Shown: piece by piece, positions 41,230 through 58,506 of the stretch
Position numbering within the stretch: position 1 is the first letter of the stretch
Layout of the letters: every line of letters begins with the position of its first letter
DNA from: Sphaerochaetaceae bacterium
Lineage (GTDB): Bacteria; Spirochaetota; Spirochaetia; Sphaerochaetales; Sphaerochaetaceae
Direction: 5' to 3'
DNA length: 64,000 bases
Assembly (NCBI GenBank): GCA_028532915.1
Contig: JAQQAI010000023.1
Location: forward strand, 1-64,000
The notes under the pieces: model-generated
What the model was told of the DNA's origin: nothing
Database searches by the model: none
Seen by the model: only the letters and a program-made list of their open reading frames with translations
Translations under genes and position numbers: made by a program

Positions 41230-42399
41230 ATGTCTCTCTACCTTTTTACCAGAAATTCAAGACTAAGATCGAACATAAATACGCAACTGAAAAAAGGCTG
41301 TATCTCGGCCGCCGACAGGCATTCGCTCAACTGTATCGGAAAAAAAATTGCAGCAGACCCCCACCCTGTTCTTATTATCGATGAATCATTCAATGAAGAG
41401 GGGATCCTTCCCTTCGTTGAATACTGCATCTCGCAGCATATACCCGGACCGAAGATATTCATTCCAAAAAGAAAGACCGAGCAGAGCGATTATGTTTACG
41501 ATGGGAATCATGCGATTCTCTACAGACCATTCTCTATAGAACAGCTGCTGGTATGTGCAATCCGGTTAGGGTCTGTAGAAGCGGTCGCCGAACATATCAG
41601 CGATGAGATGAGAGAATCGATCGAAAAGAAGTACTGTAAGAACTTGTATTCCACCTTTCTGGTGGGCGATTCTGACCATATCAGGGAGGTAAGAGAGATC
41701 ATCCGGCAGATAGGAAACCGCTTTGAATATGTCCACCTGAACGGAGAGTCGGGAACGGGAAAGGAAATCGTTGCATCTCTTCTCCACTATGAAAGAAATA
41801 TCAGCAGCCCCTTTGAAGCTGTGAACTGCTCGACGATCCCGCCCACACTGGCCGATGCTTTTCTGTTCGGAGCGAAAAAGGGGGCGTACACGGATTCTAA
41901 AAACGAACAGAAAGGGTGTGTGAAACGTGCTGATAACGGAATCCTCTTTCTTGATGAGATCGAGGACCTGCCTTTCGAAATTCAGGGAAAACTTCTTAGA
42001 GTACTCGAAACCAAAAAATTCACCTCTCTGGGCAGCGATGAGATCGAAACGAGCAACTTCAGACTCATCACTGCGAGCAACGTAGATCTCAAGCAGCTCG
42101 TATCTCTCAAACGGCTGCGTTTCGACCTCTATCACAGGATCAACAAGGTAGTGATCACGTTACTTCCTCTGAGAGAGAGAAAAGAGGATATCCTGCCGCT
42201 TATCGGGCACTTCATGAACAAAAAGCATGAGAAAAGAGAGATCGAAAAGGAAACCCTCGATTACATGCTGACCTACCACTGGCCCGGAAATGTCAGAGAG
42301 CTGTTCAATACACTCGAACAACTGCTTCTTTTCAATACTCATACCGAGACGATATCGAAGGAAAACATCGCAGTCGATTCGATCTTCAACAGAACATAA
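41230..42399 (+). CDS. AAA+ sigma-54-activator-like regulator with altered GAFTGA loop and no DNA-binding domain
   Basis: 389 residues. The N-terminal 120 residues look like a degenerate receiver (LIIDESF; the usual KPF is RPF in LYRPFSIEQ). Then comes the AAA+ core: Walker A GESGTGKE, Walker B ILFLDEIEDLP, and the arginine-finger region LRFDLYHRINKV, with TYHWPGNVRELFNTLEQL at the end. The sigma-54-contacting loop, normally GAFTGA, reads GAYTDS (residues 218-223). The protein ends soon after the AAA+ lid, with no Fis-type helix-turn-helix. CAGGAG precedes the start. It may bind partners other than sigma-54 or act without binding DNA. Function unknown; the domain assignment is secure. Confidence 0.82.
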   Translation: MSLYLFTRNSRLRSNINTQLKKGCISAADRHSLNCIGKKIAADPHPVLIIDESFNEEGILPFVEYCISQHIPGPKIFIPKRKTEQSDYVYDGNHAILYRPFSIEQLLVCAIRLGSVEAVAEHISDEMRESIEKKYCKNLYSTFLVGDSDHIREVREIIRQIGNRFEYVHLNGESGTGKEIVASLLHYERNISSPFEAVNCSTIPPTLADAFLFGAKKGAYTDSKNEQKGCVKRADNGILFLDEIEDLPFEIQGKLLRVLETKKFTSLGSDEIETSNFRLITASNVDLKQLVSLKRLRFDLYHRINKVVITLLPLRERKEDILPLIGHFMNKKHEKREIEKETLDYMLTYHWPGNVRELFNTLEQLLLFNTHTETISKENIAVDSIFNRT

Positions 42400-42612
42400 A
42401 ACGGAACTTGCTCCCATTTTATATTGTTCCGGTTTATCGAATAGAATTGCTCAAACATCCACGGGGAAAAATTTTTTCAGATTTTTCTTGCATTTTCCAG
42501 TGAAGAAAATGTATTGATCAAGAATGCATTTATAAGGAAAGAGATGCAAAATTTTTACTAGCAAACAGGTCAAAATAGGAATCTGTGCAGGTGTGAACAA
42601 CTCATAACAACT

Positions 42613-42621
42613 TGTGGATAA
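42613..42621 (-). promoter_or_regulatory. DnaA box
   Basis: TGTGGATAA, a perfect complement of TTATCCACA, in the middle of the gene-free region. Confidence 0.6.
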
Positions 42622-42835
42622 CTTGTTGATTCACTGTCGATATTATCTATAAAAACAGTTATAAGAATAACAATAAAAGTTATATAATTATTACTTAAAC
42701 CCGGTACCGGTAATTATCATATAATTATTTATATCATATAAAGATACATATTACGTATTGTATAGTATGCTACACCTCTCTGTAATCTGTACAAAAAGAG
42801 AGAATATCCAATCTTCTACCGCTGTATGGAAAGGT

Positions 42836-42844
42836 TGTGGATAA
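42836..42844 (-). promoter_or_regulatory. DnaA box
   Basis: Second perfect TGTGGATAA in the same orientation, 223 bp from the first and within the same 15-bp repeat. Confidence 0.6.
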
Positions 42845-42917
42845 CTTGTGTAATTGTCTTGTATCATCTGTGGGAAACTGGATAGTGTGAAGAGAGAAAT
42901 CCTTGAATATTATGAGT

Positions 42918-44210
42918 TTAGCTTTCTCTTTTTATCTTCGCTCCAATCTGCAGAAGCTTGCCGGTCAGATCCTCATAGCCTCGCTCGATCTGGTAGATGT
43001 TCTGGATGATAGAAGTCCCTTCGGCACATAGTGTCGCGATCACCAGAGCCATGCCCGCTCTCACATCGGGCGATGAAACGATTGCAGGTTTAAGAATGTT
43101 CGGCCCCTGGATCACGGCCCGGTGTGGATCACACAGAATGATATCGGCTCCCATACGGATAAGCCAATCAATGAAGAACATCCTTGATTCATACATCTTC
43201 TCATGAACCAGTATTGTTCCATTCATCTGAGTTGCCGCCACAGTTATGATACTCAGCAGGTCTGCCGGAAATCCGGGCCACGGAGCATCATCTATCTTGT
43301 TGGTAAAACCGCTCACACTTTTTGATATGATTCGTTTCTGATTCTTCGGGATAATGATGGAATCCGGACCGCTTGCTTTCCAGCTCAGTCCTATCTTTCT
43401 ATATCCCTGTTCGATCACCATAAGATCATCTCTGCTCACATTCTTCAGTTCAATTTCACTTGCGGTAGCACCGGCCAGACCTATGAAAGAACCGATCTCC
43501 ATATAATCGGGTCCGATAGAAAAATCACATCCATGCAGTTTCTCAACACCTTCGACGGACAGCACATTGGAACCTATCCCGGAAATCTTCGCTCCCATGC
43601 AGTTGAGCATCCTGCACAGATCCTGGACATGAGGTTCGCAGGCGGCATGGACGATAGTAGTGCTCCCTCTGGCCATAGAGGCGATCATGATGACATTCTC
43701 GGTAGTGGTCACTGAGGCTTCATTCAAAAATATTCTGTTTCCGACAAGTTCGTCAGATTGAACAATAAGGTATCCGTCATCATTTACATGACAGGATGCT
43801 GAAAAGAGTTCCAGAGCATCAATGAGAGTATCTATTCTTCTGAACCCTATCACATCACCGCCGGGAGGCGGAAGCACGAGGCTCTTCGCCCTGGTGAGCA
43901 AAGGCCCTACCAGAAGAAGGGAAGCCCTTATTGATTCAACATGAGAGGGAGAAAGATAAATTGAAGACCAGTCGCATCCAAAGCTGTCGATCTCGCAGGT
44001 ATGATCATCATGCAGTTTCACATCCACGTTGATAGACCGCAGCAGTTCTGATAGAACCTTGATATCTTCGATCAGAGGTATGTTGCGAAGTATGATTCTC
44101 TCATCGCTAAGCAATGCTGCGGTCATAGCTGCCAGAGCCCCGTTCTTGTTTCCGCTTATGGTGATCTGTCCTTCTAGAGGTGTTCCCCCTTCAATCACGT
44201 AACTTTCCAT
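42918..44210 (-). CDS. murA: UDP-N-acetylglucosamine 1-carboxyvinyltransferase, Asp-type active site
   Basis: Adds enolpyruvate from PEP to UDP-GlcNAc, the first committed step of peptidoglycan synthesis. 430 residues from ATG 44210; the frame opens 17 codons earlier, but MESYVIEGG aligns with the family start and lies 6 nt after a promoter -10. The conserved ISGNKNGALAAM holds the Lys-Asn pair. In the active-site loop the usual cysteine (PGGC) is replaced by aspartate: PPPGGDVIGFRRID, Asp119 (codon 43854-43856). The same change is known from fosfomycin-insensitive MurA of mycobacteria, chlamydiae and some spirochaetes. Divergent from the PfkB-type kinase gene; alone on its transcript. Confidence 0.95.
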   Translation of the reverse strand: MESYVIEGGTPLEGQITISGNKNGALAAMTAALLSDERIILRNIPLIEDIKVLSELLRSINVDVKLHDDHTCEIDSFGCDWSSIYLSPSHVESIRASLLLVGPLLTRAKSLVLPPPGGDVIGFRRIDTLIDALELFSASCHVNDDGYLIVQSDELVGNRIFLNEASVTTTENVIMIASMARGSTTIVHAACEPHVQDLCRMLNCMGAKISGIGSNVLSVEGVEKLHGCDFSIGPDYMEIGSFIGLAGATASEIELKNVSRDDLMVIEQGYRKIGLSWKASGPDSIIIPKNQKRIISKSVSGFTNKIDDAPWPGFPADLLSIITVAATQMNGTILVHEKMYESRMFFIDWLIRMGADIILCDPHRAVIQGPNILKPAIVSSPDVRAGMALVIATLCAEGTSIIQNIYQIERGYEDLTGKLLQIGAKIKRES

Positions 44211-44216
44211 TATTCT

Positions 44217-44245
44217 ATCGTACTCGGGAACAAACCTTTTGACAA
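44217..44245 (-). promoter_or_regulatory. Promoter of murA, predicted leaderless transcript
   Basis: On the minus strand, -35 TTGTCA (44240-44245), 17-bp spacer, -10 TACGAT (44217-44222), then 6 nt to the ATG at 44210. Confidence 0.6.
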
Positions 44246-44250
44246 TCAGG

Positions 44251-44279
44251 TTGTTTATCATCGCAAAGCAAAGTAAAAT
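44251..44279 (+). promoter_or_regulatory. Promoter of the PfkB-type kinase gene, predicted leaderless transcript
   Basis: -35 TTGTTT (44251-44256), 17-bp spacer, -10 TAAAAT (44274-44279), then 6 nt to the ATG at 44286. Its -35 lies only 5 bp from the murA -35 on the other strand, so the two polymerases would compete. Confidence 0.6.
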
Positions 44280-52074: not shown

Positions 52075-52129
52075 CTTGTTACTCCTATTTTTATTATAAT
52101 ACTATAACAGTCGTAGTAATAGTATCGTG

Positions 52130-52298
52130 TATACTGTGGAAAACCTCAATAATTCTTTATGTAATAAATGCATAAAAAATTACAAGTTGTGGATTACACG
52201 GGGAGTTTCTCCACATTCTTTCCACCGTTATCCACAATGTAAATTAATTTTTTTCAGTTATCAACAATATATCATCATTTTTTACACAACTTGTTAGA
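52130..52298. other. Candidate chromosomal replication origin between dnaA and dnaN
   Basis: Five DnaA-box-like sites in about 130 bp: a perfect TTATCCACA (52228-52236), one-mismatch TGTGGATTA (52188-52196) and TTATCAACA (52258-52266), and weaker TGTGGAAAA (52135-52143) and TTCTCCACA (52207-52215). AT-rich stretches lie at 52150-52180 and 52240-52290. Gene strand bias switches close by: minus-strand housekeeping genes to the left, plus-strand to the right, as expected at an origin. Confidence 0.65.
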
Positions 52299-53702
52299 TT
52301 ATGATTCTCTCTTGTAATTCTGAACCTGACGGATGAGATTCTGGATCGAATTGCTCATTGCAATGTCATTTTTGATCATCGCTTCAACACGCTGTACCGA
52401 GTGCATTACAGTCGTGTGATCCCTTCCTCCGAACTCATATCCTATCTCCGTCGTGGAATAATCGGTAATAGAGCGGGCGATATACATGGCGATCTGACGC
52501 GGCAGAACCACAGATTTGGTCCTCTTCTTTCCTTTGATATCATATACGGAGATGTTGAAATAATCGGATACGACACGGATGATGGAATCGACGGACATTG
52601 TCTGATCTTTCGACAGAGAATAGGTACTCCGCAGCTGTTCCCGGGCTATATCGAGGGTTATCTCTTTGTTCAGCAGATTGCTGTAAGCTATCAGTTTTGT
52701 CAGAGAAGCTTCCAGGTCTCTTACGTTCGTATTCACACTCTTACTTATATATTCGAGTACATCACTTGCGATATGACAGGTTTTGATCTCGCATTTCTTT
52801 CTCAGAATCGCCAGTCTCGTTTCAAATGATGGAGGCTGCAGATCGACGTTAATCCCCCGTGTAAAGCGGTTTTTAAGGCGGTCAGTGATATCCTGAAGTT
52901 CGTTTATCGGACGGTCACAGGTGAATACAAGCTGCTTATTCGATTCGAACAGATTGTTGAATATGTGGAACATTTCTTCCTGGGTGGATTCTTTGCGCTG
53001 CAGAAAGTGTATGTCATCGATGAGAAGCACATCGGCCTTTCTATATTTGTTTCTGAACTGGGGAGTCTTCTTTTCTCCTATTGCCATGATGAACTCATTG
53101 GTGAACATCTCGGCAGTCACGTAGATCACCTGAAGTTCAGGCGTGTTTTCCTGAATATAATTCCCGATTGACTGGATCAGGTGAGTCTTCCCCAATCCTA
53201 CACCGCCGTATATCAGACAGGGGTTGTATGAGACGCCGGGATTCTTTGCGATCGCCATGCTTACATTGTAGGCGAAAGCACTGTTCTCACCTACAACGAA
53301 ATTGTCGAAATGATAAGCAGAATTTATATTGGGATCATTCGGTTTTTTCTGAGCCTTGGGCATGACAGCCTTGGAAAACTCGGCGTTAACAGCAGACTGT
53401 TTCGGTTCTTTGGGCTGATGAACGGCTTCACCGGTTTCTTCCTGTTGTTTCAATATGATCTCGACACTGATCTTCTCTCCTGTAAGTTCTTCCAATATAG
53501 AGAGAAAACTGTTCATATACTGATTTTGAATATAGTCACGGATAAATAGTGAAGGAACTGATAACACCACTTTGTGATCAGCCGATTCGACATATGAGAT
53601 CCTGTGCAGCCATGTTACACATTCTTGTTCTGGTAATGATGATTCCATTCTAGAAATCACTTCCTGCCAGAACGGATAATAGTTCCATTTTTGTTGTAGC
53701 AT
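52299..53702 (-). CDS. dnaA: Chromosomal replication initiator DnaA
   Basis: AAA+ initiator that opens oriC. 467 residues from ATG 53702; alternatives in frame are ATG 53708 and a start at 53753. I prefer 53702 because a promoter -10 box ends 7 nt before it and no Shine-Dalgarno exists. Domain I begins WNYYPFWQEVISRMESSLPEQE; domain III has Walker A LIYGGVGLGKTHLIQSIGN and Walker B VLLIDDIHFLQ; domain IV ends with the box-recognition signature GYEFGGRDHTTVMHSVQRVE. Divergent from gyrB. Confidence 0.96.
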   Translation of the reverse strand: MLQQKWNYYPFWQEVISRMESSLPEQECVTWLHRISYVESADHKVVLSVPSLFIRDYIQNQYMNSFLSILEELTGEKISVEIILKQQEETGEAVHQPKEPKQSAVNAEFSKAVMPKAQKKPNDPNINSAYHFDNFVVGENSAFAYNVSMAIAKNPGVSYNPCLIYGGVGLGKTHLIQSIGNYIQENTPELQVIYVTAEMFTNEFIMAIGEKKTPQFRNKYRKADVLLIDDIHFLQRKESTQEEMFHIFNNLFESNKQLVFTCDRPINELQDITDRLKNRFTRGINVDLQPPSFETRLAILRKKCEIKTCHIASDVLEYISKSVNTNVRDLEASLTKLIAYSNLLNKEITLDIAREQLRSTYSLSKDQTMSVDSIIRVVSDYFNISVYDIKGKKRTKSVVLPRQIAMYIARSITDYSTTEIGYEFGGRDHTTVMHSVQRVEAMIKNDIAMSNSIQNLIRQVQNYKRES

Positions 53703-53709
53703 GGTCATT

Positions 53710-53738
53710 ATAATAGCCCAGCCAATGGCGATTGGCAA
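53710..53738 (-). promoter_or_regulatory. Promoter of dnaA, predicted leaderless transcript, with a palindrome between -10 and -35
   Basis: On the minus strand, -35 TTGCCA (53733-53738), 17-bp spacer, -10 TATTAT (53710-53715), 7 nt before ATG 53702. The spacer and -35 hold a perfect inverted repeat, GCCAAT-N4-ATTGGC (53721-53736), placed like an operator. Confidence 0.55.
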
Positions 53739-53833
53739 GGTATTGGGCCACAAGTATATGAGCGGAGAATTAAAGTATGTTTAAATTGCTATAATATAAA
53801 GAAATATCATATTCCTAAAATACCTTTCACCCC

Positions 53834-58390: not shown

Positions 58391-58424
58391 CAGCCGTCCG
58401 AAATCTCGGGCGGCTGTATTGTTT
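58391..58424 (+). terminator. Terminator of gyrA
   Basis: 11-bp stem with one G-T pair (58391-58401 with 58406-58416) and a 4-nt loop, 19 nt after the gyrA stop. The following TATTGTTT is also the first part of a parS site. Confidence 0.7.
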
Positions 58425-58435
58425 CACGTGAAACA
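58420..58435. promoter_or_regulatory. parS site
   Basis: TGTTTCACGTGAAACA, a perfect 16-bp match to the bacterial parS consensus bound by ParB. It lies about 420 bp upstream of parA. Confidence 0.92.
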
Positions 58436-58490: not shown

Positions 58491-58506
58491 TGTTTCACGT
58501 GAAACG
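58491..58506. promoter_or_regulatory. parS site (15 of 16)
   Basis: TGTTTCACGTGAAACG differs from the perfect site only at the last base. It is followed by a further overlapping half-site (ACGTGAA). Centre-to-centre distance to the first parS is 71 bp. Confidence 0.85.

Follow-up and report, generated by a model that had tools for sequence, protein, structure and literature searches.

A conserved two-arm DnaA-box site near the replication origin of Spirochaetia, probably a DnaA regulatory locus of datA-like anatomy

Two kinds of locus that control DnaA outside the replication origin, datA and DARS, have been described in E. coli, and control of initiation in spirochaetes has hardly been studied. 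At datA, DnaA boxes 2 and 3 and a site for the bending protein IHF are essential (literature on datA), the spacing between box and IBS matters (PMC4585315), and a weak box next to box 2 is likewise required (PMC5835720). Our own scan of E. coli datA found a consensus IHF site flanked by boxes 2 and 3 (one perfect, one with a single mismatch), which are co-oriented and lie 162 bp from each other. The first DARS was delimited to 70 bp with three boxes (PMC5835720), and among the DnaA-box clusters (DBCs) of B. subtilis no single one has been recognised as having a major role (PMC5295017). Here we analyze a stretch of 64,000 nucleotides from a Sphaerochaetaceae genome (the window), in which a non-coding gap beside murA probably holds a conserved Spirochaetia DnaA regulatory locus of datA-like anatomy, situated on the origin side of the chromosome, separate from the origin itself and, we infer, exerting negative control. 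Our literature search, which did not extend to subscription journals, returned no description of such a spirochaete site.

The gap is 518 bp long and contains short overlapping ORFs only, as judged by ORF search (Table 1). Our sequence scan bears out the preliminary description of this gap, which had reported two perfect DnaA boxes embedded in identical 15-bp direct repeats (TTGTGGATAACTTGT). The 9-mer itself occurs 17 times in the 2.64-Mb assembly, compared with 12 occurrences of the reversed control pattern, so DnaA 9-mers are not generally enriched in this genome; the chance expectation for same-orientation pairs no more than 250 bp apart is about 0.013. The palindrome CCGGTACCGG, also described earlier between the boxes, is indeed present near position 42701, but it is absent from the conserved blocks and is not conserved when these are compared across Sphaerochaetaceae sites. 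A scan of the gap for promoters and terminators gave nothing credible, and no terminator. An Rfam search of the gap yielded no credible family: the sole match, to the dCoV 3'UTR, scores 20.5 bits where the cut-off is 174.8 and is spurious, a sub-threshold chance match arising from AT-richness. To the right of the gap, at a distance of 7–16 kb, are dnaA (52299–53753), dnaN, recF and dciA, all on the minus strand, and gyrB/gyrA on the plus strand.

Table 1. Positions in the window of the gap, its flanking genes, the elements of the site and the dnaA-dnaN gap.
Feature	Position	Strand	Remarks
Sigma-54 activator-like AAA+ gene	41230..42399	+	Ends at gap; syntenic marker
Non-coding gap holding the site	42400..42917	.	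Between convergent genes
Extra weak box TTGTTCACA	42592..42600	-	21 bp beyond arm 2; two mismatches; seen in window sequence
Arm 2 strong DnaA box TTATCCACA	42613..42621	-	Perfect; 223 bp from arm 1, co-oriented
Weak DnaA box GAATCAACA	42624..42632	-	11 bp upstream of arm 2; offset -11 comparison over 52 sites
Internal block B, TATATAAC (family form TATATAAG)	42679..42686	-	Exactly 150 bp from arm 1
Place of internal block A (family form TGTCAACT)	42742..42749	-	87 bp from arm 1; degenerate here (ATGTATCT)
Arm 1 strong DnaA box TTATCCACA, murA side	42836..42844	-	Perfect match
Weak-box position AATTACACA	42847..42855	-	11 bp upstream of arm 1; degenerate in window, box-like in most relatives
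murA	42918..44261	-	Ends at gap; boxes on murA strand in all syntenic sites
dnaA-dnaN gap	52075..52298	.	Five boxes with no more than one mismatch, a sixth with two; skew minimum

Both flanking genes have their 3' ends at the gap. Because these neighbours converge on it, the gap is not an upstream control region of the AAA+ regulator; the earlier suggestion that it controls this gene is not supported, and the site is kept in genomes where the neighbours change. The sigma-54 activator-like protein has an AAA+ domain and no Pfam match for a DNA-binding or receiver domain; the closest named relatives of the MurA protein are from Spirochaetales MAGs and Sphaerochaeta species, which places the window in Spirochaetia and probably in Sphaerochaetaceae.

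The preliminary description had proposed a comparison of the gap in related genomes, and this comparison shows the site present and conserved beside murA. The co-oriented pair recurs in the murA 3' flank of relatives, with a spacing of 223 bp in eight of the closest named loci and of 212, 221–222, 231–233 or 244 bp at others, and 24 of the 26 closest named loci (L049–L074) carry a pair in which neither box has more than one mismatch. The canonical pair is missing at many Treponema loci near murA. Over the class, a perfect same-orientation pair 209–239 bp apart is found in 58 of 198 Spirochaetia genomes, while at the same spacing the reversed control pattern is found in none of the 198 and the opposite orientation in one. 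Adjacent spacing windows give 14 genomes (240–269 bp) and 44 genomes (178–208 bp), the latter window including related sites with shorter arm spacing (e.g., 195, 205 and 206 bp). When the search was made strict, with four elements (ACA-NN-box, present twice), it matched 40 of 215 Spirochaetia genomes and none of the 178 from elsewhere in the phylum.

The gene order in many families is rsmE, sigma-54 activator, STAS, a 219-aa regulator-like gene, the site, a 321-aa gene, an lptFG-like gene and murA. Sphaerochaetaceae and families f3, f4 and f17 lack the lptFG part, and their site adjoins murA; the window lacks the 219-aa gene as well. Since the site is kept despite these differing neighbours, it does not depend on any particular one. 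Where site and dnaA lie on one contig, they are 10–146 kb apart, and this kept nearness to the origin could partly reflect the position of murA, itself near the origin. Pairs of this type adjoin yidC rather than murA in some families (L149, L150, L152, L153, L155).

The arms themselves have a fixed composition. Across 52 murA-linked or otherwise syntenic sites, each strong box has a weak box upstream of it, at a distance of exactly 11 bp: at offset -11 the mean agreement with the box is 6.2 of 9 positions for arm 1 (83% ending in ACA) and 6.5 of 9 for arm 2 (87% ending in ACA), compared with about 1–4 of 9 at other offsets. Read in this register, the 15-bp repeat that was first noted is the tail of a weak box, a 2-bp linker and a strong box.

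The AT-rich stretch between the arms is also constrained. Among 22 Sphaerochaetaceae sites, block B (TATATA[AG]G) is found in 12, at a constant distance from arm 1 (shuffles: mean 0.6, maximum 3), and block A (TGTCAACT-like) in 18 (shuffles: mean 2.0, maximum 6); in the window block B is present in the looser form TATATA[AG]. A strict IHF consensus occurs in 0 of the 22. Arm spacing in Sphaerochaetaceae varies in steps of 10–11 bp, mostly between block B and arm 2, and tandem-box gain and loss could be a partial source of the 11-bp steps. The arm spacings of families f1, f3, f4 and f17 hold one helical phase (R 0.92 at a period of 10.5, uncorrected for relatedness), and the phase is weaker over all families (R 0.59, likewise uncorrected).

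The internal blocks are not the same from family to family. Several sites of f3, f4, f5 and f17 (among them L132, L133, L300, L305 and L306, of f3, f4 and f17) contain a CTTAACR block, mostly ~125 bp from arm 1, which is unlike the Sphaerochaetaceae blocks and is a possible site for another DNA-binding protein. We also considered parS as the middle element of the murA site and rejected it, having found this arrangement only in one Treponema-like genus and at another locus. There, a parS palindrome lies inside a pair of DnaA boxes spaced 205 bp apart (L320, 5077–5290; L321, 5083–5296); the L320 pair has an ogt-like (MGMT) gene on one side and a dciA-like gene on the other, and in G059 the parS-enclosing pair is ~275 kb from dnaA.

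The preliminary description had raised the possibility that the gap is the real origin or an auxiliary one. We read the cumulative GC skew in four genomes in which the site lies 30–146 kb from dnaA; in a fifth (G004) the site is only 15 kb away, a distance below what skew can separate. The skew turns at dnaA, with no turn at the site, in G060 (146 kb), G041 (97 kb) and G023 (30 kb), and in G062 (113 kb) it turns within about 30 kb of dnaA, again with none at the site. In the window the skew minimum lies near 50–52 kb; skew at fourfold-degenerate sites, calculated per gene, is too noisy there to be decisive. In the genomes that we checked, among them the window (58420), G060 and G062, parS is about 5–6 kb away from dnaA. 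In the window, the parS consensus TGTTTCACGTGAAACA at 58420–58435 is followed by a second, 14-bp match (GTTTCACGTGAAAC) at 58492–58505, after gyrA and ~5 kb from dnaA. On skew and parS together we reject an origin at the murA gap in the four genomes: the murA site is not the main replication origin. The dnaA-dnaN gap of Sphaerochaetaceae has its own conserved set of 3–6 boxes with no more than one mismatch, similarly placed across the family, in both orientations and with spacings unlike those of the murA site. This gap is likely the real oriC of the window; the Borrelia oriC has been placed between dnaA and dnaN too (PMC9879097). Of the two outcomes that the preliminary description had expected if its reading were wrong, we thus observed one, a skew minimum elsewhere, but not the other, since the site is present in close relatives.

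The two-arm grammar is not confined to the murA site. We found the same arrangement within the dnaA-gyrB gap or immediately upstream of dnaA in G155, G183, G180, G208, G089 and G204, the families with dnaA-gyrB modules being f12, f36, f39, f41 and f42. Both kinds of module are present in G053 and G061, and genomes of f18 and f26 have both. Because the grammar also appears in the dnaA-gyrB gap, where the module is probably oriC in those families, a regulator outside the origin is not the only setting of this module. The pairs in the dnaA-gyrB gap or upstream of dnaA at L308, L309, L313, L317, L330 and L151 are oriented with gyrB where gyrB was found.

How well do other explanations account for these findings? 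Passive titration, in which boxes near the origin bind DnaA and lower the free pool once copied, leaving the bound nucleotide unaffected, was among the earlier proposals and is consistent with everything we observed; titration models call for high-affinity boxes near the origin (PMC12371093), and the B. subtilis clusters provide a precedent (PMC5295017). Titration alone, however, would require neither a fixed orientation nor a fixed 11-bp shift, constant internal distances or steps of a helical turn, and we consider it an unlikely, though the strongest, rival. Transcription control, by which DnaA would regulate a flanking gene, has parallels in the DnaA-regulated genes of Borrelia (PMC9879097) and in the families where the site lies upstream of an lptFG-like operon, but the window site is 3' of both neighbours, and loss of the lptFG operon and the 219-aa gene leaves the site in place. 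This makes it the least credible of the readings, with very little probability.

E. coli DARS lie farther from oriC than the murA site does from dnaA, which speaks against a site that would reactivate DnaA by nucleotide exchange and so act positively. DARS elements are likewise non-coding groups of oriented DnaA boxes (PMC5835720), but the compact first DARS described above contrasts with a 220-bp two-arm site, and we regard a DARS-like role as improbable. An auxiliary or former origin, in which an oriC-like module has been retained or serves as a second place of initiation, is a shade less probable again. It would fit the AT-rich middle, the presence of the same grammar at the likely oriC of the families with dnaA-gyrB modules, and the genomes of f18 and f26 that carry both kinds; against it, the site shows no skew switch in the four genomes (a measure that is blind to rare firing), and parS follows dnaA.

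The reading that we favour is a datA-like negative regulator: apart from IHF, the site matches the logic of datA, and its own genome encodes one protein of the HU/IHF family and no Hda above the curated cut-off. Each arm is a weak and a strong DnaA box, head-to-tail and 11 bp (one helical turn) apart, and the two co-directional arms stand about 21–22 turns apart, separated by an AT-rich middle whose blocks keep constant distances. DnaA would load onto both arms, and a bending protein, for which the single HU/IHF-family protein is the candidate (HU-type bending being assumed), would fold the middle so that the arms meet. Copied soon after initiation, the site would then assemble DnaA and remove its active form, by promoted ATP hydrolysis as at datA, by titration, or by both. 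With no Hda above the cut-off, such a site could serve as a brake on DnaA after initiation.

More tentatively, and with rather less confidence than in a regulatory role as such, we suggest an ancient Spirochaetia-wide element of DnaA control, whose datA-like anatomy evolved independently of E. coli, which acts as the main post-initiation brake where Hda is lacking, and which may share descent with the two-arm dnaA-gyrB origin. If this were true, locus-based control of DnaA would be widespread or convergent, with the same logic kept through a distant class and a measurable grammar of orientation, 11-bp shift and turn-wise spacing. The site also offers a concrete target in spirochaetes.

It is instructive to set the site beside the known systems. 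Like datA, it is non-coding, with two strong co-oriented boxes flanking an AT-rich middle; in both, a weak box adjoins a strong one (here at offset -11, degenerate at arm 1 of the window); spacing is constrained in both, with the Sphaerochaetaceae blocks fixed 87 bp and 150 bp away from arm 1; and both are near but outside oriC, the spirochaete site at the distances from dnaA given above. In contrast, the middle of datA is a bending (IHF) site and that of Sphaerochaetaceae contains two other conserved blocks, without a strict IHF consensus; the boxes are 162 bp apart in datA and 195–244 bp apart in the spirochaete sites; box 4 of datA is opposite in orientation; the glyVXY/queG context of datA is unrelated; and the two share no sequence homology except the boxes. 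We do not claim membership of datA, because the IHF consensus is missing and because hydrolysis activity is known for datA, while the present case is made from sequence. DARS1 and DARS2 are similar in being non-coding groups of oriented DnaA boxes with sites for bending proteins, and differ in their shorter core, chromosomal position and anatomy. The B. subtilis DBCs, which restrain initiation, are likewise box clusters on the origin side and outside oriC, but they form a redundant set of six, for which the literature consulted reports no fixed two-arm grammar. The spirochaete oriC, in the dnaA-dnaN or dnaA-gyrB gap, shares with the murA site its DnaA boxes and AT-richness and, in the dnaA-gyrB gap of some families, the two-arm grammar itself.
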